From IMG/VR virus record IMGVR_UViG_3300023054_000025, positions 1 to 24,551 of that record: a stretch of 24,551 bases of DNA; one strand, written 5' to 3'. The notes beneath the pieces are model-generated. The model saw nothing but the letters and a program-made list of their open reading frames with translations. It was not told the origin of the DNA and made no database searches. A program made the translations under genes and the position numbers. This stretch comes from a virus. Shown one piece after another: positions 4,726 through 17,321 of the stretch. The number at the start of each line of letters is the position of its first letter. Position 1 is the first letter of the stretch.

Positions 4726-5949
4726 CTATTCTCCAATCGGTATAAATAAAGTTGAGCCACCACCACCGCCACCTGATGTTTGTGATTGGACTGCTCCAAT
4801 GTCTTTATCAAGGGAGGATGTCCCTCTATATTCTGGTAATAAAGTAAGGTCTCCATTTACAATATCGGTAAAAGGAGTTTCGTCTAATATAACATCACTG
4901 GATGTCAAGTTGTTTATAATTGTAGCACTAGCAGGAGTTACTTCTGGTGTAGTTGAATTAAAAAAAGCATTATTACCATAATCAACAATATTAAAATCAA
5001 CTCCACTGTTCCAAGTTATGCTTGTTGCTCCTGCTCCGTCGAACTCGTAAAATATATTATCCTTAATTGCTGAAATTGGTTGTCCGTATCCTTGCTCGTA
5101 AATCTTCATTGCTTTTAAATTTGGAAGACCGTTTCCCAAAAAGGTGTTATTTTTAATCTGGTTGTATACGCCTCCGTGGACAACAATCATTGGGTACGTT
5201 GTGGAAACTGTGTTTGTAACTTCAAATACATTTCCTTCGAATCCGCAAGGCGAAGAATTTGCGTATTTGCCTATGTCTATTGGGTAATTAAATTGTCCCC
5301 ATCTAAAATAACTATTTCTAAAATTTTGCTGAACTCCTCCATTTCCATCATTATAAAGAATAAATCCTGTTGTGTTATCTTTTTTAAAAAAAACATTTTC
5401 AAAAGTATTTTGATAATACTGCATATATAAAAAATTCCTCTCGCCACTTAGTCCGTTGTCGTTTATTTCTACATCTTTCCAAATCGGGTAACCTCCGCTG
5501 TGCATACCATATTGGTGGTTTGGAATTGTTATTTTTAAATTTTTGTAAATAAATGAAATATCTCTTGCGTTTAGCCCTCCAAACTGCGTTGTAATGGAAG
5601 AAAAATCCAATACTGCAACGTGCTCTATTTCGGGTCTATTGTCTGGAAAAGTTATCTTGGCATTTCCTCCATCGTTTGCCCCTGACACTGTGAAGGTTTT
5701 GTCGTAATCGTTTTTTGTAAATCCTGTCTCGGTACTCCATCCTGCCGTGCAAACTTCGTTGTCGCTAATCAGGCACGTGTCTCCGGAACTTGAAACGTCC
5801 ACACATTTTTGAATAGTTAAATAAGCAGTTGGCAATGAGTTGCCATCATTTGAGTCACTTCCAGTTGTACATCTAACATATCTCGTCGCACCAAAAGCAA
5901 CATTAACAAATAAGAAAAAAGTAATTAGAAATTTAAAAATGTTTTTCAT
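4726..5949 (-). CDS. Secreted right-handed beta-helix protein
   Basis: I start at ATG 5949 (MKNIFKFLITFFLFVNVAFG), giving 407 aa. This start overlaps the previous stop as ATGA and yields a clean Sec signal peptide; the in-frame start at 5976 would bury it. After the signal comes ATRYVRCTTGSDSNDGNS and an 'LTIQKCVD...GDTCLI' turn, the usual opening of pectate-lyase-like beta-helix proteins. Repeated N-rich rungs follow (FENVFFKKDNT, IKNNTFLGNG, IKDNIFYEFDG). The end has DIGAVQ, like the 'DIGAFE' close of choice-of-anchor-Q-type helices, then six Gly and STLFIPIGE. I see no certain catalytic set, so depolymerase or adhesin are both open. CpG is denser in its first two thirds than in flanking genes, suggesting recent acquisition. 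Confidence 0.75.
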   Translation of the reverse strand: MKNIFKFLITFFLFVNVAFGATRYVRCTTGSDSNDGNSLPTAYLTIQKCVDVSSSGDTCLISDNEVCTAGWSTETGFTKNDYDKTFTVSGANDGGNAKITFPDNRPEIEHVAVLDFSSITTQFGGLNARDISFIYKNLKITIPNHQYGMHSGGYPIWKDVEINDNGLSGERNFLYMQYYQNTFENVFFKKDNTTGFILYNDGNGGVQQNFRNSYFRWGQFNYPIDIGKYANSSPCGFEGNVFEVTNTVSTTYPMIVVHGGVYNQIKNNTFLGNGLPNLKAMKIYEQGYGQPISAIKDNIFYEFDGAGATSITWNSGVDFNIVDYGNNAFFNSTTPEVTPASATIINNLTSSDVILDETPFTDIVNGDLTLLPEYRGTSSLDKDIGAVQSQTSGGGGGGSTLFIPIGE

Positions 5950-6341
5950 TGTTCTAGTCCGTAACAAACTGTCCATCTAATATCTCCAGTAGCACTAGAA
6001 GTAATTTCAATACCTTTCGCCTCTGCTAGTTTGATAATCTTATTATTCAAGGTAAATACAGCGGGCTGATTTTCTAATAAGTTATTTGAATAAAAAGCAT
6101 CACCATCTTCTTCCCCTAATGTAACAAGACTAGTGGTTGCTCCTATATTCTGGACATAAATTTTATAAACAACTATCTGCTTATCAGCAACCCCATCAAC
6201 GGCTAAGAGAGTTGTAGCTGTTGTAATTCCCGTACCCTCATCACTAACACAAATAGCTGGAGACAACTGAAACCTCTCAACCTGTGCAAAAGATAATACC
6301 GGGACTAAAAGTAAAACTAAGAGTAATAATATTTTTTTCAT
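5946..6341 (-). CDS. Small secreted protein (131 aa), unknown
   Basis: Residues 1-19 are a textbook Sec signal peptide (MKKILLLLVLLLVPVLSFA) with predicted cleavage before QVERF. The mature part of about 112 residues is beta-rich and Thr/Ala-rich, with two Cys, one near each end, that could form a disulphide outside the cytoplasm. It is coupled to the beta-helix gene by an ATGA overlap, so the two are probably made together. Phage virion proteins assemble in the cytoplasm and do not need a signal peptide, so I infer an action on the host envelope or surface. No family recognised. Confidence 0.65.
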   Translation of the reverse strand: MKKILLLLVLLLVPVLSFAQVERFQLSPAICVSDEGTGITTATTLLAVDGVADKQIVVYKIYVQNIGATTSLVTLGEEDGDAFYSNNLLENQPAVFTLNNKIIKLAEAKGIEITSSATGDIRWTVCYGLEQ

Positions 6342-6346
6342 TTTCT

Positions 6347-6622
6347 TTATTTATTTTTAAACTTCTCTAACACACCCCATATTGTGGCTCCTAAGAATAA
6401 GACAACTCCAGAGGCATACTCAAAAATAACATCTTGATTCTGTGCTATTCCTTCTGCTAACTTTCTACCCTCTTCTGGTACCCCTGCCAACGTCCCTAGA
6501 GTAATAAGCCCTACCCCTACCCCTGCTATTAACTTTCTAAGAACACTTCCTACAACTCTCTTAGCTAAGGTATTTTGTAGCCAATCAATCGGCTTTTTAA
6601 AAATATTAGTTACAAAACTCAT
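6347..6622 (-). CDS. Putative holin (two-span membrane protein, 91 aa)
   Basis: ATG 6622 has AGGAGA seven bases upstream. The protein has an amphipathic basic start (KKPIDWLQNTLAKR), a first hydrophobic segment around residues 29-48 (LIAGVGVGLITLGTLAG), a polar loop with PEEGRK, and a second segment around 68-85 (ASGVVLFLGATIWGVL), ending in KFKNK. Size, two spans, a basic C-terminus and position just after the lysozyme fit a class II-type holin, which would permeabilise the inner membrane to release or activate the endolysin. There is no sequence signature to prove this. The coiled-coil membrane protein at 7271-7498 is the alternative or partner. Confidence 0.55.
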   Translation of the reverse strand: MSFVTNIFKKPIDWLQNTLAKRVVGSVLRKLIAGVGVGLITLGTLAGVPEEGRKLAEGIAQNQDVIFEYASGVVLFLGATIWGVLEKFKNK

Positions 6623-6779: not shown

Positions 6780-7274
6780 TTAGTCTTTTTTGAATAGGGA
6801 GAAATTATAGCCTGATATTTTATTGATTAGTAAGTCTGTTACCCTCTTAGCTCTGGATTTAACTTGCTTGGCCCATAGAGACTTTAGAGCGTTGTCCTTA
6901 GCCTCCTCGTACCTGTCTGCTTTAATCAGCCTTAAGGTATTTTTAAACTCGCTAAACTTATTAAAACCCATATTAAACATCATATTAATAACTGCTAGCT
7001 TCTGGTTAAAGCCTAACTCTTGCCAGTCTTTATTTCCAATAATCTTAATGGAGTCCTCTATAGCATCTTTAATATCGTTGGTTAGTAAGTAATAAGCCTC
7101 CTCGTCTGACAGCCCTCTCTCTTGAATATTCCTACCAATCCCAATAGTCCAAATACCTTTTGAATCTTGATAAATAACATGTCTATTATTTTTCTTAACT
7201 TCTCCCTCATCTTGAGTTAACATTGGGATTAATATATCTATTAGTCTTTCTGTTTCTGACTTATACATTTTCAT
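6780..7274 (-). CDS. Endolysin, T4-type lysozyme (GH24)
   Basis: A 164-aa muramidase that cleaves the glycan strands of peptidoglycan to lyse the host. The T4 lysozyme catalytic triad is in place: E23 in LTQDEG, D37 in IYQDSKG and T43 in WTIGIGR, spaced as E11, D20 and T26 of T4 lysozyme apart from a five-residue longer beta-hairpin. The C-terminal lobe has the family's INMMFNMGFNKFSEF and RAKRV blocks. There is no N-terminal signal or signal-anchor, so it needs a holin to reach the wall. It overlaps the preceding membrane-protein stop as ATGA, giving a compact lysis cluster. Confidence 0.93.
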   Translation of the reverse strand: MKMYKSETERLIDILIPMLTQDEGEVKKNNRHVIYQDSKGIWTIGIGRNIQERGLSDEEAYYLLTNDIKDAIEDSIKIIGNKDWQELGFNQKLAVINMMFNMGFNKFSEFKNTLRLIKADRYEEAKDNALKSLWAKQVKSRAKRVTDLLINKISGYNFSLFKKD

Positions 7275-7498
7275 CTTAAAAATTTAATAGCAAGGCTTAC
7301 GACTGCTGACATTAAAGCCCCGGCAATAGTCCCAATAAGTAACATTTTAGTTTTAAGCACTGCTAGCTCCTTCTCGTTATTAGTTACCCTAGAGTCTATA
7401 TCCTTCCTACAATCCTCTAACCTAGCAAGCTCGCTAATAAATAACCTTCGGTACTGAGTAAACATCTCATCGCCACCACTACTTTCATTGTTTTCCAC
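7271..7498 (-). CDS. Coiled-coil protein with C-terminal membrane span; holin or holin-like
   Basis: The start is GTG 7498, supported by GAGGGGG upstream and lying 14 bases inside the PAS gene. The 75-aa product has a charged N-terminal coiled coil (LARLEDCRKDIDSRVTNNEK) and then a single hydrophobic helix, MLLIGTIAGALMSAVVSLAI, ending KFLR. This coiled-coil-then-span layout is that of XhlA-like lysis proteins; topology is opposite to an inner-membrane spanin. It is directly coupled to the lysozyme. I infer a membrane-lysis role, either as the holin or as helper to the two-span protein at 6347-6622. Confidence 0.55.
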   Translation of the reverse strand: MENNESSGGDEMFTQYRRLFISELARLEDCRKDIDSRVTNNEKELAVLKTKMLLIGTIAGALMSAVVSLAIKFLR

Positions 7499-8063
7499 AA
7501 AAACACCCCCTCGCCTTTATATAATCCTCAGTGATTGTTTTAACATCAATGGCTTGGCTTATGAAGTATAATAACTCTTGCTCTTGGTCGTAAACACAGG
7601 AGACTGTTAACTGTAAAGGTATTGGAATCTTGGCACCCTGCTTGTCTAAATAATAGTACTCCTTCTCCATAGTGTAAGTCTCGGTACTTTTATTTTCAAT
7701 TAAACTTTTTACGTTCTCCTCATCTTTAGAGATAAACTCAGGCATTGTTATGTCTTGCCATCTTAAGCTTAACAATTCCTCTTTAGAGCGACGGACTAAA
7801 TTACACCAAGCTTGATTTACATCTAAAAAAAAACCATCTAAGGCGACCTCTGCTAGTCCAACTTTTGAGTGTTTAAATAAATTTGCATAAGTAGAGTTAA
7901 GTCTTGCTAATTGTTTTTCTTGCTGTTCTATCTCTTCTGTTAGTTTTTTTATTATTGGGAGTACGCTTTCTTTAGTATGAAACGAGGACATGTGAGCCGG
8001 CTTAATTCCTTGTTGAATATCGATAATGTTTGAAACTAGTCTGAGTCTCTGGAGATTTGCCAT
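7485..8063 (-). CDS. Stand-alone PAS-domain protein
   Basis: A 192-aa protein. Residues about 34-57 are a coiled coil (EEIEQQEKQLARLNSTYANL at its end), which in sensor proteins joins dimers. Residues about 58-173 read as one complete PAS domain: LFKHSKVGLAEVALDGFFLD, then VNQAWCNLVRRSKEELLSLR, the WQDITMPE turn, and strands KEYYYLDKQGAKIPIPLQLT and LYFISQAID. There is no kinase, cyclase, HTH or other output domain. The tail ends GCFCGKQ with a CxC pair. Any ligand is unknown and I see no definite haem or flavin signature. It lies between the tail-fibre genes and the lysis cluster, overlapping the latter, so it is expected to be late-expressed. The ATG has no clear ribosome site. Confidence 0.8.
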   Translation of the reverse strand: MANLQRLRLVSNIIDIQQGIKPAHMSSFHTKESVLPIIKKLTEEIEQQEKQLARLNSTYANLFKHSKVGLAEVALDGFFLDVNQAWCNLVRRSKEELLSLRWQDITMPEFISKDEENVKSLIENKSTETYTMEKEYYYLDKQGAKIPIPLQLTVSCVYDQEQELLYFISQAIDVKTITEDYIKARGCFCGKQ

Positions 8064-8077
8064 TTTTTATTTAACTA

Positions 8078-8473
8078 TTAACTAAAAATAGCTTCTATCT
8101 GTTGACTTGCTAATATCTCTGCTTGCTTCTTAGCATCTTCTTTAACAAAGTTAGCAAAATCCTCTCTAAGCCTGTCTCTAATATCATCACAAGCCCATTG
8201 AAGCTCTGATTTTGGATTAGGATACTCCTCATTAACATATCTGGTATGGTCGTAAGGTTTCCCGTCAGGGTCTAATGCTTCCTCTATTATTGCTTTTTGT
8301 TTAATTAATATATCAGAATATCCTCGACTAACTGCATATCTCTTAATCATTTCCATATCATTTGAAAATAATACCTGAGGAATAATAAAGGGTATTGAGA
8401 TTACTACTGAGTTATTAGCAGGAGGATTAAATGCTAGTTCGTTTATTTTTGCTATAATTTCTTGGTAAGTCAT
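8078..8473 (-). CDS. Hypothetical protein after tail fibre; possible fibre chaperone
   Basis: A 131-aa soluble protein starting a few bases after the fibre stop. It begins MTYQEIIAKINELAF, has a Pro/Ile-rich middle (VVISIPFIIPQVLFS), a DPDGKPYDHTRYVNEEYPNP segment and a helical acidic end. I do not recognise a family. Position immediately after a collar-domain fibre is where phages often encode a fibre-assembly chaperone, so that is a position-based suggestion only. Confidence 0.5.
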   Translation of the reverse strand: MTYQEIIAKINELAFNPPANNSVVISIPFIIPQVLFSNDMEMIKRYAVSRGYSDILIKQKAIIEEALDPDGKPYDHTRYVNEEYPNPKSELQWACDDIRDRLREDFANFVKEDAKKQAEILASQQIEAIFS

Positions 8474-8475
8474 GA

Positions 8476-9357
8476 TTAGTACTTTATAACATAATTTAAA
8501 GTTAAAAAAGGAGGATTATTACTTAGAGTATTTTGGTCAACATCTCCATTTAAGCCTGAGATGTAACCTACATTTCCTGCAAAATCTCCGTTTGTGTGAG
8601 TATGTGCAGGAGTAGTATGTGTATGGTTTGATGATACTCCACCTGTTGTCATTGTGTGATTATGACTTCCGCCTGCTTGCGTTCCAACTGGACTATAATG
8701 GTCTGATACTGCACCAGTACCACCCCTGTACTTGAAAGCATCTCCACCGACTGAGCTAGTTGAAGAAACATAAAATCCGTGAATGTGGCTTCCATCAGTG
8801 CTAGTTGTCCCTGTGTGAGTATGTCCAACAGAATTGTTGCCTGTGGTTCCACCGCCAGATGCGTTTATGTATAAGTTTCCTTTGCTATGATAATGAGCCT
8901 TGACTACATGTACATGGTCAATTGCTCCACCAACAGAACCTAATACCGCCCCTGTCCCTGAGACTGCTTTCCCTAATGGAAACCTCTGTCTTAAGTCTGG
9001 AATATTAAACGTTGTTGAACCATCACCAGACCCATAAGTAGTAGAAATTCTAGCAAATAAATTAGCGTAAGTAGTTCTACTAACAGCAGCTCCATTACAA
9101 GTTAAAAATCCACTTGGAGGAGTTGCTCCAGTGTCAATAATTATAGCACCGGTAAAGAGAAAGGATAATAAAATATCCCAAGTTGAGCCATTAAAATTTT
9201 CTACTGATTGAGTTGTTGAATTAACTCTTTTTGTATTTGTTGGGATATTTGTAGCGCCTGTATAATCTTGCTTAGCATTATGAGCAAATAACCCTCTAAT
9301 AGTATCTAATACATCTGAGTAGTTATCTGTGGTTACTGGCTTATTAAAATCACTCAT
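8476..9357 (-). CDS. Tail fibre with phage collar domain and HxH metal-binding motifs
   Basis: A 293-aa fibre protein. Residues about 68-130 form a phage tail collar domain (TGAIIIDTGATPPSGFLTCN ... GSGDGSTTFNIPDLRQRFPL). From residue 148 to 254 the chain is Gly/Ser/Thr-rich and carries seven His-x-His motifs (148/150, 155/157, 179/181, 191/193, 232/234, 245/247, 252/254). In the T4 long-tail-fibre tip such motifs from three chains coordinate a line of iron ions; a similar metal-threaded trimer is inferred here. It ends NNPPFLTLNYVIKY, the usual close of collar-type proteins. The 67-aa frame on the same strand at 8649-8852 is an out-of-frame shadow. It is the likely receptor-binding or side fibre. 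Confidence 0.88.
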   Translation of the reverse strand: MSDFNKPVTTDNYSDVLDTIRGLFAHNAKQDYTGATNIPTNTKRVNSTTQSVENFNGSTWDILLSFLFTGAIIIDTGATPPSGFLTCNGAAVSRTTYANLFARISTTYGSGDGSTTFNIPDLRQRFPLGKAVSGTGAVLGSVGGAIDHVHVVKAHYHSKGNLYINASGGGTTGNNSVGHTHTGTTSTDGSHIHGFYVSSTSSVGGDAFKYRGGTGAVSDHYSPVGTQAGGSHNHTMTTGGVSSNHTHTTPAHTHTNGDFAGNVGYISGLNGDVDQNTLSNNPPFLTLNYVIKY

Positions 9358-9367
9358 AATTTTTTAT

Positions 9368-12300
9368 TTAAACAGGCGGTCTAATAACTCCCTCAGCAAA
9401 CCATGAGAATCTTTCAGCTACCTGAGTTCCACTACTATTAAAAATCTGTACTTCAAATTGGTCAACATCTGGAGAAGCCCAATCATATTTTACAAAAGCA
9501 TAAAGCTTATCTCCTGAGCTATTAGCAGGCATAGCATTAAGATTAATGACATCTATAAAATCTTTATTAAACGTTACCACAGTCCAACCTGAGGCACTAG
9601 ATACTCCATTACCTCCGTCTCTGGATTTCTTAACATCAATCTTAACAGTAATATTACTAAACCTAGCTATAGCAGTATCAGCCGAGCCTGTGAACGTCAA
9701 AGTATATCTTGCATATCTAAAAGCAATAGTAAAAGCAGAGGAAGCGTTGTAAACTGTCCAAGCATCTCCAATATCCTCTTTTACTTCTATCTTAGGAGTT
9801 GCTGTTACTACTCCAGAAACTACCTCATTTGACCAAGTAAACTTAAGCGCAGAAGCCGGAAGGATAACTCCATAGTCTTTTTCATATTCAAAAGTACTTG
9901 TACCCCCGGGAGTCGGCTGAGCATAAATAGGATAACTAGCATCTATAAAATCTTGGAAAGTAGTTTTAGAGTTATTGGTAAAGTGTTCAGCCCATGTTTC
10001 TGTAGTATTTATAGGAGCTACTAAAGTATTAAGTAATGAGTCCTTACAGTTTACTAAAGTTCCATCTGCTACAGGAATAACTAAATAATCTTGTAATACA
10101 TAATCAGGAGGGTCGAAAACTGTAGTTATTACACTAAGCTCAGCTCCCTCATTTCCTGCTGTATCAATAGCTGTTATCCAGTAGGTATATTCTCCTCCTA
10201 CTGTCTCTAAGTAAGTATGAAAGCTAGCATCAACTGTACCTATAATAACAGCACTTAAAAAGGTATCTCCTTTATAAACTCTATATGTTGCTACTGGTAA
10301 ACTTGAAGGAGCTGGAACCTCCCAATCTAAAAGCACATTATTATCAACTGTAGTAGCTCTTAGTTCTGTAATTACATTAGGAGCAACAATAATTATTTCT
10401 GTAGCTGTCGCCATATCACTTTTATTCTTAGTGGTATCAACTGCCTTAATCCAATATGTAGTACTTCCTGCAACTTTATAATTATCTACAAACTTAGTTC
10501 CTTTAATCTCATCTAAAAATGTTGCTGCTTCCCAAGAGGCTCCACCTCTACGGATTTCAAAATAATCAAAGTCTATCTCGCTACTAGCGTTCCAACTTAA
10601 CCTAATTGCAAGCTCTTGTAAGCTAGCAACAAAACCTGTCACGTTAGCCGGCTTAGCTGTCTTTCCAACAACTGTATGACTACCTGTTACCCAATCAGAG
10701 AAAGAGCCTATACCATTTTTTGACCTGATTCTTACATCATAACCAGAGCTATCTTTAACATCTAAAATATGAGTAAAGGACTGGTCCCCATCAACTTCAA
10801 TAGCATTTGACCAACTTCCAGAGCTTGTAAGTTTATATTGTATTTGTATCTTGCCTGACTCTGTTACAAAAATATCAGTAGGAGGAGTCCAAGCTACCTT
10901 CATACGAGAGAATATTGTCCCATCACTTCTCTTGTATAGTTCGTCTGTACCACTTGTTAAAACTAATGCTGTAGGCGCTCCTGATGATTCTGGATTAGGT
11001 AAGCTTGTAGCAGGAGCTTGAGTAATTGAATTCTCATCAATAGTCTCGTTCCAATTATAAGCATTAGAATCTATTTCATGTAAAACAAGAGTGATTGTCG
11101 GAATTAAAGAGCTATCTAAAAAAAACTTATAATCCTCTACTAAAAAGACTTTGCTTGAATAACCATACCTAGGCATACTAAGCATCACCGTATCGCCCGG
11201 GAGCAATGAATAAGCCTTTAATCCAAAGTCTGCCTCAAAGGACTGCTCTCTCCTAGTTTCCTCTAATTCTATCTTTGCACACCTCTGGCATTGAGTCCCA
11301 CTAGTTACTAAGTTAAAAGGCATATCATAAAACCTTTCTCCTCCATCCTCATTTACATAAGTTGAATTACTAGAGGGAGGATAGTCTGTTACTTCATAGT
11401 TATTTTCAATTGATACAAATTGTCCTCTAACTGTATTAAAGATTTCTGATTTACTTACTAATCTATTAATTGTTGGAGGAGATAATAAATCATCTTCGGT
11501 TAGAGTTATAGTAGGAGTTACATATTTACCGGGAAAGAATCGCCATTTACTATCTATAAAAACTATATTTCCTGCCATTGAAAGAGCCATCTCCTCTAAT
11601 ACTTCCTGAGGACTAACTCCTGCATCAATAGCTCCGTTTATTTGATACCTTGGCTCTGTCCCTCCTGCCTTTAAAGGTACTGCCTCATCGCAAATATTAG
11701 CAGCCCATTGTAAACCACCTACATTAGTAGAGGTATCAATATCAGCCCAAGCAACACCCATCCCAAAGTTAGTATCAGTTAAGTAGTCGGCTGCAACTAA
11801 AGCAGCGTTAGTTTTATAAAGAGTAGTAGCATCCCGAGGGTCATATAACTTCTTACCTTCTATCTCTAAGATAATCTCAGGCATGCCCTCAGCAAATAAA
11901 ATATTATGGAATAGTAATATTAAGTAAACATGTGCTCTATTGCTTTGCTTGTCTGTACTTGTCCAAAAAGCAGGAAGTTGTCCTATTAAATCTGTATTAG
12001 CTACTTGTGAAGGAGAGCCAAGTCCTTGAGTGGCCATAAAGACCCTAGAGACAGCACCCGGAGCAAAGTCTCCATCACACCACCTATCAACTCCATTAGG
12101 AAAGCTAACCTGTTTATCATCTAAAAATAATCCCTTAACAGCATTAACCTCATGGCAAGCGTAAGTAACAACTAAATGAAGATGTTTAGTATCAGGATTA
12201 ATATAAATAAAACTAATAATCCCACCTGTTTTAAATCTCCCATAAATTATCTGCCAAGGTGCGTCAGCTTGAGCATAACTAACATCCTTCCCTTTTGGTA

Positions 12301-12475
12301 ATGCTCTCCTTTTTTGTCTCTTAAGTCTCCTTCTCGCTTTCCTGATATTAAGCTTAGTTATAGGTAACTCTTTATCCTTTAGGAATTTCCTAATGTCCTT
12401 CCTCTTAATGTGAAGTAAGCCACCTCTCTCTGCCTTCTCAACATCTTGAATCTCTGGAATAAATAAATCTGTCAT
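9368..12475 (-). CDS. Tail tip / host-specificity protein (lambda J-like) with fibronectin-III repeats
   Basis: A 1035-aa protein at the tip of the tail that forms the hub and contacts the host. The N-terminal half has the J-like tail pattern: PWQIIYGRFKTGGIISFIYI near 72-92, a DPRDATT/LYKTNAALVAADYL block, a QEVLEEMALSMAGNIVF block, then ETRREQSFEADFGLKAYSLL followed by PGDTVML. From about 500 to 800 come three fibronectin-III-like repeats (APTALVLTSG..., ANVTGFVASL..., ITELRATTVD...). The last about 235 residues are beta-rich and end in WFAEGVIRPPV. It starts on a TAATG overlap with the previous tail protein. The N-terminus before the core is very basic (RKARRRLKRQKRRALPKGK). Confidence 0.85.
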   Translation of the reverse strand: MTDLFIPEIQDVEKAERGGLLHIKRKDIRKFLKDKELPITKLNIRKARRRLKRQKRRALPKGKDVSYAQADAPWQIIYGRFKTGGIISFIYINPDTKHLHLVVTYACHEVNAVKGLFLDDKQVSFPNGVDRWCDGDFAPGAVSRVFMATQGLGSPSQVANTDLIGQLPAFWTSTDKQSNRAHVYLILLFHNILFAEGMPEIILEIEGKKLYDPRDATTLYKTNAALVAADYLTDTNFGMGVAWADIDTSTNVGGLQWAANICDEAVPLKAGGTEPRYQINGAIDAGVSPQEVLEEMALSMAGNIVFIDSKWRFFPGKYVTPTITLTEDDLLSPPTINRLVSKSEIFNTVRGQFVSIENNYEVTDYPPSSNSTYVNEDGGERFYDMPFNLVTSGTQCQRCAKIELEETRREQSFEADFGLKAYSLLPGDTVMLSMPRYGYSSKVFLVEDYKFFLDSSLIPTITLVLHEIDSNAYNWNETIDENSITQAPATSLPNPESSGAPTALVLTSGTDELYKRSDGTIFSRMKVAWTPPTDIFVTESGKIQIQYKLTSSGSWSNAIEVDGDQSFTHILDVKDSSGYDVRIRSKNGIGSFSDWVTGSHTVVGKTAKPANVTGFVASLQELAIRLSWNASSEIDFDYFEIRRGGASWEAATFLDEIKGTKFVDNYKVAGSTTYWIKAVDTTKNKSDMATATEIIIVAPNVITELRATTVDNNVLLDWEVPAPSSLPVATYRVYKGDTFLSAVIIGTVDASFHTYLETVGGEYTYWITAIDTAGNEGAELSVITTVFDPPDYVLQDYLVIPVADGTLVNCKDSLLNTLVAPINTTETWAEHFTNNSKTTFQDFIDASYPIYAQPTPGGTSTFEYEKDYGVILPASALKFTWSNEVVSGVVTATPKIEVKEDIGDAWTVYNASSAFTIAFRYARYTLTFTGSADTAIARFSNITVKIDVKKSRDGGNGVSSASGWTVVTFNKDFIDVINLNAMPANSSGDKLYAFVKYDWASPDVDQFEVQIFNSSGTQVAERFSWFAEGVIRPPV

Positions 12476-13697: not shown

Positions 13698-16600
13698 TTA
13701 TATTGCCCCTCTTTCTACTAAATCAATAACAGCATCTACACTAGCTTGGATTGCATTATTTTGCATCTCAGATAAAGCATGCAAGATTGAAGCCTCAACC
13801 CCTTCGCTCGCTCCTCTTGCATCAATATTAATATTAACATTATTTCCACCTCGAGAGCTTCCTAAATCAGCAGAGACTCCTAACTTTCCTCCTACTTGTG
13901 TTAAAGGTAAAATCCCCTCTGGTCCTGCTTCTCCCATCATGCCACCTGCAAACCTAGTTAAGCCTGTTACAATTCCACCTCTAGCAAACTTCTCTACAGT
14001 TCCATTATTTGAGGAAGTTGTATAACTACCTGCTTCTGGATGGTCTCCTGTAAATATTCCATTATATTTTACATTGATTGTTGTACCGTCCATCTCTTTA
14101 ATTGATTTAGCAGTAGCTTGAACCTTCTCGTTAAGAGTGTCCCAACTTCCCCCGGCATCTTGGATAGCTGCATCCATACCAGCAACTAAATTAATTAAAG
14201 TATCTTCGCTAGCATTTACTAATTGGTCTATTGAGGTAATTCCATTAGTAGCAAGAGTAGACATTAGTCCTTCAATTTCTGAGGCTGTAAACTCTCCACT
14301 AGCTGTAAGTGATTCTCTTAATCCATCAAGTGATGTTATCCCTGCCTCTGCTGCTTCAATTCCGATATTTTGCATCTGGATTAAAGCTTGATAACCCTTT
14401 CCTCCTGTAGCAATTAACTTAGACATTGCTCCAGTATAATTACCTATCCCTGCTAATCCATCTCCAAAAGCCTGATTAGCATCCCTAATCCTACTAGCTA
14501 CTTCTAGCCATGTGATTTCTCCCTGCTTTCCTGCCTCCTTCTGTGCATTAACAAACTCCTCCTGAGTAATGTTAAGCTCTGTAAATAAACCTCTTAGGCT
14601 GTCAATATCGCCCCCTAAGGCATCTTGTAACATGACCCCTAATTGTCCTGACTCTAAATCGTCAATATTTAATTTAGCAGATATTACCTCTCCAGCTCCT
14701 AAGAAAGTATTTGCATTATCTCCGGCACTTGGAAAGAAGTCTCTCTCTGCTATAAAATCAGTAAAGTTATTAAATAAGTTAGGGTCTAAACTATCTTTAA
14801 TTCCTGTACTAAATTCTGATAGTTTTTTTAATATTGGATTTAACTGGTCGGCGGCTGCTTCTCTAGCAATAGTCTCTGGATTTGTAGCACCTCCAAGACC
14901 AAAGGCTTTATTAAGTCCCTTCCCTGCTGCTTCGCCTAACTTAGCTCCTATCTGTGCTCCTACTGGTCCACCAAAAAAGGCACCAATAGCTGCTCCTGCT
15001 CCTGTAGTAATTCCATTAACTGAGTCCTCGGTAGACTTACCAACTTTAGAGAGAGCCTCAAAGCTTGCTATCCCTGCTGATATATAACCTGCATTTGAGT
15101 TAGCTCCTGCAAAGAGTCCTCCCGGGTCTGTGCTTAATGTTCCGGGAGTGAAGTCTCCACTTGGTAATAATGGCCCTTGCATACCCTCTGGTCTTGCTGA
15201 CCCAAACAAAGAGTCCATAGAGAATATTTTTGAAAAACTAAAACCACCATTTGAGTCTGTCCCTGATTTAAAGATGGATTGAGCTATGCTACTTCCTAAA
15301 TCTTGTGGACTTGATAAATCAAAGCCTCCTAAGCCTTCTGTTAAACTTGCTGCTATCTCTGAGGCAAAACCTACAGCAACCTGCTTGAACATATCAGTAA
15401 GATCAAACTTTAATCCTGTAATTCCATTTTCAAAAAAGCTTTGCCAATTCTGGACAGCTTCTTTATGAGCATCTATTAAACTATCTTTACCCTTATCAGC
15501 GCCCTCCTCTAGTCCTTCTTTTGTAGCTTTAGCAATGCCATCTTTAATACCTCCACCACCTGCCCCACCTAAAGCACCTTTCTCAAAATTTACTAACAAC
15601 TTCTCTAATTCTGTTTGTGTTTTTTTAGTTTCCTCTGTTACTACTGCTTGATTATCTGCTCCCTGTGCTATGGAGGCATTTACTCTGTCTGTTGCTACTC
15701 TCCATTTATTAGCATTAACTTCTGCTTGATGTATTTCGTTATTAATTTTATTAACCATCAAACCAATAGAATCAGCTTGAGTTTTACTAAAGATAGCTGT
15801 GGAGGCTTCTTGTAGTTCGTAAAAAGCTAACTTAAGTTTTAATAATGGAACATGAAGAGCTGCTGCTCCTGCCTTAAACTTATCTACTACATAATCCCAA
15901 ATAGCTGTTAAGCCATCAAGAATTTTGCCTAAGTTCATTGCTACTAACGTCACTCCTATTAAGGCTAGTCCCATAGGATTTGAAGCTAAAGCAAGTTTCC
16001 CTAAGGCTATTAAAGCGCTAAAGGCTAATTTAACTTTCCCGATTGCTAAAACTACTGGTCCAGCAATAGCAACTATCCCGGCTAATTGTAAAGTTAAAGT
16101 CCCAACTCCTACTAAGATAGCTTTGAATGCAGCTCCTAAAATCCAATTATCCATTGCCTCGCTGACTTTCTCAACACTATTAAGGACAGCAGTAAAAGTA
16201 TCAATAGCTGTGCTTAAAATAGGGATTAAAAGATTTCCAAAAGCAATCGCTATACTAGTTAGTCTATTTAAGAAAGTATCAAATTTAGATTTAAAAGTAT
16301 CAAGTCTTTTTGCATACTCATCGGATAAAGCAGTGTTAGCCTCAAAAGCTATTGCTTGCCTGTTCATAGCTTCTCTTAATTGGTCTGAGTTCTTAGCTAA
16401 GTTAAGAGTAGAGAGGATTAATCTCTGTTCATGGATTCCCATCTCTCCTAATATTTTAATTAAGCTTCCTCCTCCACCTTCAATATTTTTCATACCCTCG
16501 AAGAGCCTAACAAAAGCTTCCTCTGGACTATTCTGTGCTAATTTTTGAAAAGCTTCTGGAGTTTGTTCTCCTGCTATCCTTGAGTAAGTTGCTAAAGATT

Positions 16601-17321
16601 CTCCTCCCTCATCAACAGCAGTTTTTAAGGCAATAAACATTTTCTGCATTGCTGTACCACCTGCCTCTGCATTAATACCCGTACTTGATAAAGTTGTCCC
16701 TACTGCTGCTATTTGACTTGCTGTAAGTCCAAACATAGTACCAGAGGAAGCCATCCTCTGAGTAAAAGTTACAATCTCTGCTTCTGTAGTTGCAAAGTTA
16801 TTACCTAAGTCTACAATCACTGAGCCAAATCTTTCTACTTCACTATCTGGAAACTTAGTAACTGCTTGGATTCTTGCTATAGATGTTGCTGCTTCCTCTG
16901 CTGATAAATTAGTAGTCTCTCCAAGTTTAATCATAGTCTCAGAAAAAGCTAAGACTCCTTCTTTATTTTGCCCTAACTGTCCTGCTACTTCTGCAACTCT
17001 TGCAATCTCATTAGCTGAGGCGGGCATCCTCTTAGACATATCTAAAATACCTGTCTCTAATCTTTTATAATCTTTTACGCTTCCGTCTACTGTCTTTTTA
17101 ACTCCTGCAAAAGCACTCTCAAAATCTGATGCTAATTTAACTGCTCCGGCTGCTGCTAATCCTAAGGGTAAAGTAAACTTAGTTGATATATCTCTACCGA
17201 TTCGCTCCATCTGGCGCCCTTCCTTAGTTAGAGACCTTTGAGCATCGTTTAGACCTTCCTTAAACTGGTCTACTTTTAATTGTAATGAGACAAATAATGA
17301 TCCAACCTTTCTAATCGCCAT
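13698..17321 (-). CDS. Tail tape measure protein
   Basis: A 1207-aa tape measure, the longest gene here; in siphoviruses its length sets tail length. Residues about 1-45 are a helical start (LFVSLQLKVDQFKEGLNDAQ). Residues about 65-330 form a TP901-type core (FESAFAGVKKTVDGSVKDYK ... GQNKEGVLAF ... GTTLSSTGINAEAGGTAMQK). Residues about 340-470 hold a long hydrophobic region that may be membrane-active during DNA injection. Gly/Ser-rich and helical parts follow. The end has FARGGIVTGLTRFAGGMMGE and AGPEGILPL, a typical tape-measure close. It starts 11 bases inside the frameshifted chaperone gene, with no strong ribosome site, so coupling is likely. Confidence 0.93.
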   Translation of the reverse strand: MAIRKVGSLFVSLQLKVDQFKEGLNDAQRSLTKEGRQMERIGRDISTKFTLPLGLAAAGAVKLASDFESAFAGVKKTVDGSVKDYKRLETGILDMSKRMPASANEIARVAEVAGQLGQNKEGVLAFSETMIKLGETTNLSAEEAATSIARIQAVTKFPDSEVERFGSVIVDLGNNFATTEAEIVTFTQRMASSGTMFGLTASQIAAVGTTLSSTGINAEAGGTAMQKMFIALKTAVDEGGESLATYSRIAGEQTPEAFQKLAQNSPEEAFVRLFEGMKNIEGGGGSLIKILGEMGIHEQRLILSTLNLAKNSDQLREAMNRQAIAFEANTALSDEYAKRLDTFKSKFDTFLNRLTSIAIAFGNLLIPILSTAIDTFTAVLNSVEKVSEAMDNWILGAAFKAILVGVGTLTLQLAGIVAIAGPVVLAIGKVKLAFSALIALGKLALASNPMGLALIGVTLVAMNLGKILDGLTAIWDYVVDKFKAGAAALHVPLLKLKLAFYELQEASTAIFSKTQADSIGLMVNKINNEIHQAEVNANKWRVATDRVNASIAQGADNQAVVTEETKKTQTELEKLLVNFEKGALGGAGGGGIKDGIAKATKEGLEEGADKGKDSLIDAHKEAVQNWQSFFENGITGLKFDLTDMFKQVAVGFASEIAASLTEGLGGFDLSSPQDLGSSIAQSIFKSGTDSNGGFSFSKIFSMDSLFGSARPEGMQGPLLPSGDFTPGTLSTDPGGLFAGANSNAGYISAGIASFEALSKVGKSTEDSVNGITTGAGAAIGAFFGGPVGAQIGAKLGEAAGKGLNKAFGLGGATNPETIAREAAADQLNPILKKLSEFSTGIKDSLDPNLFNNFTDFIAERDFFPSAGDNANTFLGAGEVISAKLNIDDLESGQLGVMLQDALGGDIDSLRGLFTELNITQEEFVNAQKEAGKQGEITWLEVASRIRDANQAFGDGLAGIGNYTGAMSKLIATGGKGYQALIQMQNIGIEAAEAGITSLDGLRESLTASGEFTASEIEGLMSTLATNGITSIDQLVNASEDTLINLVAGMDAAIQDAGGSWDTLNEKVQATAKSIKEMDGTTINVKYNGIFTGDHPEAGSYTTSSNNGTVEKFARGGIVTGLTRFAGGMMGEAGPEGILPLTQVGGKLGVSADLGSSRGGNNVNINIDARGASEGVEASILHALSEMQNNAIQASVDAVIDLVERGAI

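Follow-up and report, generated by a model that had tools for sequence, protein, structure and literature searches.

A stand-alone PAS protein between the fibre and lysis genes of a phage, and its possible part in lysis

What would a phage do with a single PAS domain, encoded on its own among the late genes? The question was raised by a linear IMG/VR virus record of 24.5 kb, the whole of which was analysed and is called the window here. The late genes of the window were all on the minus strand, in the order head/tail genes, tape measure, two tail proteins, J-like tip, fibre, 131-aa protein, PAS protein, 75-aa protein, lysozyme and 91-aa protein. The features needed for the argument are given below; L002 is a related phage contig, and XhlA-like refers to architecture.

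13698–17321, minus: tape measure
9368–12475, minus: tail tip/host-specificity (J-like) protein, which served as the query for relatives
8476–9357, minus: tail collar-domain fibre protein (profile E 2e-21)
8078–8473, minus: 131-aa protein whose homologue, 36% identical, is also encoded upstream of the gene at the PAS position in L002
7485–8063, minus: stand-alone PAS protein gene, ATG start, 192 aa; N-terminal helices/coil 2–64, PAS core ~65–174, C-terminal helix 174–189
7743–7889, minus: first part of the PAS fold (residues about 59–107), missing in the L002 orthologue
7542–7862, minus: PAS core (residues about 68–174), from the model and structure alignment
7506–7512, minus: GAGGGGG, the ribosome site for the XhlA-like gene, lying within the PAS gene; together with its spacer and the GTG start it shares bases with the codons of the C-terminal Arg-Gly-Cys-Phe-Cys
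7271–7498, minus: 75-aa protein with coil and C-terminal membrane helix, XhlA-like by architecture; GTG start, 14-nt overlap with the PAS gene
6780–7274, minus: phage lysozyme (endolysin; Phage_lysozyme E 4e-11)
6347–6622, minus: 91-aa membrane protein, candidate holin (weak profile, 13 bits versus 27)

The preliminary description had placed the PAS gene between tail-fibre and lysis genes, and the collar-fibre match upstream and the Phage_lysozyme match downstream agreed with this. The lysozyme gene was two genes downstream of the PAS gene, close enough for the window to be counted among the loci near a lysin.

Other properties of the window were recorded in passing. Its G+C content was 36%. 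A recognisable ribosome site was present at 11 of the 27 gene starts examined, the PAS gene not being among the 11. After the lysis genes, the products of the consecutive genes 4726–5976 and 5946–6341 (minus) both began with apparent Sec signal peptides, as exported proteins would, and the 416-aa product of this pair was parallel beta-helix-like. A counterpart of the smaller one may be held by another contig (L093, 16259–16639).

The PAS protein and its overlap with the next gene

The open reading frame was present at exactly 7485–8063 on the minus strand. Its product had a helix/coil region and, after it, a single complete PAS domain; an output domain was absent, as had been read from the sequence before. 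It matched TIGR00229 sensory_box in NCBIfam (E 1.6e-14, 54.1 bits against a cut-off of 22.9) and PAS_9 (PF13426) in Pfam (E 1.2e-7, 32.4 bits against a cut-off of 27). Searches of the same two profile collections found no output domain and no C-terminal helix-turn-helix; only 18 residues follow the PAS domain. No membrane segment was found in the protein either (maximum hydropathy 0.84), the helix being in the next gene.

Structure prediction had been set beforehand as a test of the PAS fold. An AlphaFold2 model based on nine sequences gave a mean pLDDT of 85.5, with 91–98 over residues 61–170, and superseded an earlier model from 3 sequences (pLDDT 57.6). The model contained a five-stranded sheet with helices in the PAS order, and was superimposed on solved PAS domains with a Z of 15.4 (rmsd 1.6 Å, 102 residues). 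The PAS assignment thus passed this test and, taken with the profile matches and the bacterial matches below, is well outside what chance would give.

The closest sequences were bacterial. PAS S-box proteins of bacteria were 34% identical (E 7e-12), within a range of 32–37% for bacterial PAS sequences. The best profile was the PAS of the diguanylate cyclase DgcE/YegE (PRK09776, E 9.5e-24); the score was far below the full-length cut-off, as expected for a single domain. Three other phage PAS proteins that were tested matched the same stretch of PRK09776. The window PAS has the sequence profile and fold of PAS/sensory-box domains (PF13426, TIGR00229) such as the first PAS of DgcE/YegE, but it is encoded by a phage and stands alone, without a kinase, cyclase or DNA-binding output domain. 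Membership of the LOV subfamily was considered and rejected, as the sequence contained no GxNCRFLQ flavin-cysteine motif; Cys87 follows VNQAW, a position common to non-LOV bacterial PAS. Binding of a ligand or cofactor is not universal among PAS domains.

A protein of this kind could be a decoy in host signalling. The PAS would dimerise with PAS domains of host sensors (DgcE-like diguanylate cyclases, histidine kinases) and alter signalling, and its place in the operon would only provide late expression. This would fit the host-like sequence, the absence of an output domain, and the PRK09776 PAS being closest to all four phage proteins (E 5e-33 to 6e-12, including the window). On the other hand, it would leave unexplained the recurrence beside lysis genes, the fusion to membrane segments and the half-PAS retained in L002, which are described below. 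We considered the decoy unlikely.

The PAS gene and the XhlA-like gene overlapped by 14 nt (7485–7498), in agreement with the earlier claim that the PAS gene runs into the gene preceding the lysozyme. The sequence AAG GCG AGG GGG TGT TTT TGT GGA AAA CAA TGA codes for KARGCFCGKQ, and also contains the GAGGGGG site and the GTG start. The N-terminus of the XhlA-like protein, M-x-NNE, was kept in the L002 homologue. We took the overlap to be real, because the GTG start has its GAGGGGG site in the PAS gene and is followed by these conserved residues. The overlap, together with the position of the next gene's ribosome site within the PAS gene, suggested that the two genes are translationally coupled.

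The same bases bear on the C-terminal CxC, which the preliminary description had offered as a redox or metal handle. The motif was absent in L002 and different in another relative, L092, and it coincided with the signals for translation of the next gene (ribosome site and GTG start). The proposal was rejected: with these signals in the same bases and the motif missing from L002, a redox role is unlikely.

The 75-aa product had a polar N-terminal part followed by a membrane helix (hydropathy 2.27 at residue 53), and the lysozyme gene came next. The earlier label of "holin-like" held for its architecture, a coil with a C-terminal membrane helix, which is that of XhlA (PF10779) of the PBSX-type lysis cassette. 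It did not hold for family membership, the XhlA profile giving 15.9 bits, under the cut-off of 34.7. We know of no PAS partner in the XhlA systems described.

Relatives with the same gene order

When the PAS protein itself was used as the query, neither INPHARED phages nor IMG/VR nor GTDB contigs yielded a relative, and relatives were therefore sought through the tail genes. A search with a two-sequence alignment returned L002 only.

The J protein of L002, the nearest relative, was 60% identical to that of the window. The gene order was a homologue of the 131-aa protein, a gene at the PAS position, an XhlA-like gene (49%) and a DUF5675 gene in the place of the lysozyme; an additional gene of 77 aa stood ahead of the PAS position. 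The protein at the PAS position was 127 aa long: the coil at the N-terminus was present, and of the PAS domain the C-terminal half, but nothing corresponded to residues about 59–107. It retained the two-plus-two-residue hairpin extension of the window PAS, which the aligned bacterial PAS domains lacked.

In the kept C-terminal half, comparison with the window gave a pN of 0.30 and a pS of 0.76, from one contig and with synonymous sites saturated. From these values the half-PAS looks maintained as coding sequence under purifying selection, and not a decaying remnant. With residues ~59–107 lost, the L002 PAS would have no ordinary ligand pocket. This argues that at least one lineage can do without ligand sensing.

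The DUF5675 genes of L002 (10949–11377) and of a further phage, L112 (7428–7874), occupied the expected position of the lysin. Their standing there in two phages suggests that DUF5675 is a lysis enzyme.

In L092 (genome G007), the J protein was 36% identical to that of the window. The order was fibre, a 90-aa protein, a 199-aa protein with coil and full PAS, then an 80-aa protein that has a membrane helix at its C-terminus. The L092 PAS had no match in INPHARED.

A full PAS was present in one of 50 related viral contigs (G007), many of the 50 being fragments. This bore out the earlier remark that a PAS in the late operon of a phage is unusual. Two relatives (L003 and L088) had the small coil-membrane gene and the lysozyme without a PAS, which showed the PAS to be optional.

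The rarity of PAS among the relatives would be expected of a recently captured host gene (a moron), kept by chance or decaying and with no selected link to lysis. A separate capture, seen with weak support in the tree below, points the same way. Such a gene would not be expected to have an orthologue at the same place in L002 with purifying selection on its C-terminal half, or to be matched by a PAS in the same slot of the L092 phage, whose J protein is so distant. We regard a moron as quite unlikely.

An assembly factor or minor virion protein was also considered, such as a fibre chaperone or tail-tip accessory in which the PAS is a plain binding module. The position just after the fibre genes is usual for fibre chaperones in lambda-type phages, and the PAS gene comes after the collar fibre and the 131-aa gene. 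The L002 half-PAS, moreover, shows a ligand pocket to be dispensable. However, the coupling is with the membrane gene downstream, by overlap here and by membrane fusions elsewhere, and not with the fibre, and the window PAS protein matched no PHROG tail family. A role in assembly is improbable to about the same degree as a moron.

Phage PAS proteins with a membrane segment

IMG/VR was scanned with bacterial PAS sequences, blind to gene context, and a follow-up scan was added. Six distinct phage loci (L107, L108, L110, L112, L113 and L121) encoded proteins of 164–200 aa with a single PAS and one C-terminal hydrophobic segment. The hydropathy of the segment was 1.6–2.3 in five of them and weak (1.13) in L110. 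The segment is probably transmembrane. L106, whose product is a PAS-GGDEF-EAL protein of host type, was judged to be cellular and left out. The proteins of L107 and L108 had no match in INPHARED.

A recognisable or positionally inferred lysin was close by at three of the six loci. In L108, the gene was between fibre genes and a phage lysozyme gene, the latter three genes on. In L112, the next gene was a DUF5675 gene, and genes for a small membrane protein and an Rz-like protein came after it. In L113, it and a peptidase M15 gene overlapped; the length of the overlap depends on the start and is at most 34 nt. A search for PAS genes beside lysis genes in other phages had been proposed earlier, and this was its yield, together with the same slot in L002 and L092.

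The L107 gene followed two membrane proteins at the end of the contig, which left no identifiable lysin there. The L110/L111 gene adjoined a fibre gene on the opposite strand. The L121 gene (5956–6474) was in a replication-type region, beside a DNA methyltransferase-like gene; proteins of this type therefore also occur outside lysis regions.

A small tree placed five of the PAS-membrane proteins in one cluster (90/88) and the window PAS with bacterial PAS (88/87), neither grouping being strong. The window PAS and the fused family may go back to separate captures.

Foldseek with the PAS model also returned proteins of Cellulophaga phages (phrog_10199/phrog_31932): phi19:1 gp108 (E 1.7e-5), assigned by length from the structure-search entries, and phi18:3 gp090 (E 1.8e-4). 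The gp090 gene was two genes before the endolysin, and gp108 was five genes before the lysozyme. A homologue of gp090, phi38:2 gp11, overlapped a peptidase gene. These proteins resemble the phage PAS proteins in having a coil and a nearby lysin, but their hydrophobic segment is N-terminal, whereas that of the PAS-membrane proteins is C-terminal. Despite the structure matches, profile-profile comparison with PAS found no similarity (hhalign 0.2%), and they were therefore kept apart, as a lead and not as evidence. Their kinship with PAS is unproven. A coil protein of this kind, with its N-terminal hydrophobic segment and PAS-like only in the structure search, was common to Cellulophaga phages of different families and encoded near their lysins (L100, 39102–39620; L105, 3911–4546; L102, 6203–6925). 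Unimolecular spanins have been annotated in the related flavophages Ingeline and Nekkels (PMC8776804), and the Cellulophaga PAS-like proteins may be these spanins.

A possible part in lysis

Our preferred reading, to which we give slightly less than even weight, is that a cytoplasmic PAS module docks on a membrane partner and tunes lysis. The 192-aa protein would be an accessory protein of the lysis cassette. It would dimerise in the cytoplasm through its coil and PAS sheet, and dock on the co-translated XhlA-like small membrane protein encoded next. Through this protein, the docked PAS would bring holin triggering and lysozyme release forward or hold them back. The complete PAS of the window phage may bind a ligand or cofactor. 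Docking, rather than sensing, would be the conserved core function; we ranked it first because one orthologue (L002) cannot form a normal pocket.

This reading draws on the PAS fold, the gene orders of L002 and L092/G007, the membrane-fused forms near lysins, the 14-nt overlap and the pN/pS of L002. Against it are the PAS-free L003 and L088, the contexts of L121 and L110/L111, the hint of separate capture in the tree and the sub-threshold XhlA score. The preliminary description had suggested that the protein tunes lysis timing, and the recurrence beside lysis genes and the PAS-membrane fusions lend this weight. The lysis effect itself, like the complex with the XhlA-like protein and any sensed signal, we infer.

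In known cases, lysis timing is controlled by holin/antiholin chemistry, as with RI and T of T4. A regulator bound to a membrane pore protein sets the timing in T4, where holin T is paired with the antiholins RI and RIII, RIII being cytoplasmic and RI acting in the periplasm (PMC11413866, PMC8385771). We compare the PAS protein with this system in how it would work, and claim no homology. VqmA of vibriophage VP882 is, like the window protein, a phage-encoded PAS protein; it is a transcription factor that senses a small molecule and leads to lysis (PMC8284805). VqmA differs in having a helix-turn-helix as its output and in acting at the level of transcription; the window protein has no such domain, and its gene is in the lysis region.

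Stand-alone "PAS domain" proteins of 169–205 aa from uncultured phages were already present in public structure sets. A search of open-licence PubMed Central papers yielded none that assigns a PAS protein to the lysis cassette of a phage, and none that describes a PAS-membrane fusion. Stand-alone phage PAS proteins and VqmA were known; against these papers, the proposed place of PAS in the lysis cassette, with a moderately supported mechanism, and the PAS-membrane fusion appear new.

A broader proposal is that PAS sensor domains were recruited by several tailed phages, whether distant relatives or unrelated, as a coupled gene or by fusion to a membrane helix, and that the timing of lysis was thereby tied to an intracellular signal (redox, metabolite or light); the result would be a sensor-gated lysis cassette. 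We hold this to be doubtful. The half-PAS of L002 makes it testable whether the PAS fold serves as a sensor or as a docking module. If PAS proteins do work on the membrane component of the cassette, a phage could read the internal state of its host when deciding on lysis, and the PAS-membrane proteins would lend themselves to tests of signal-dependent lysis.
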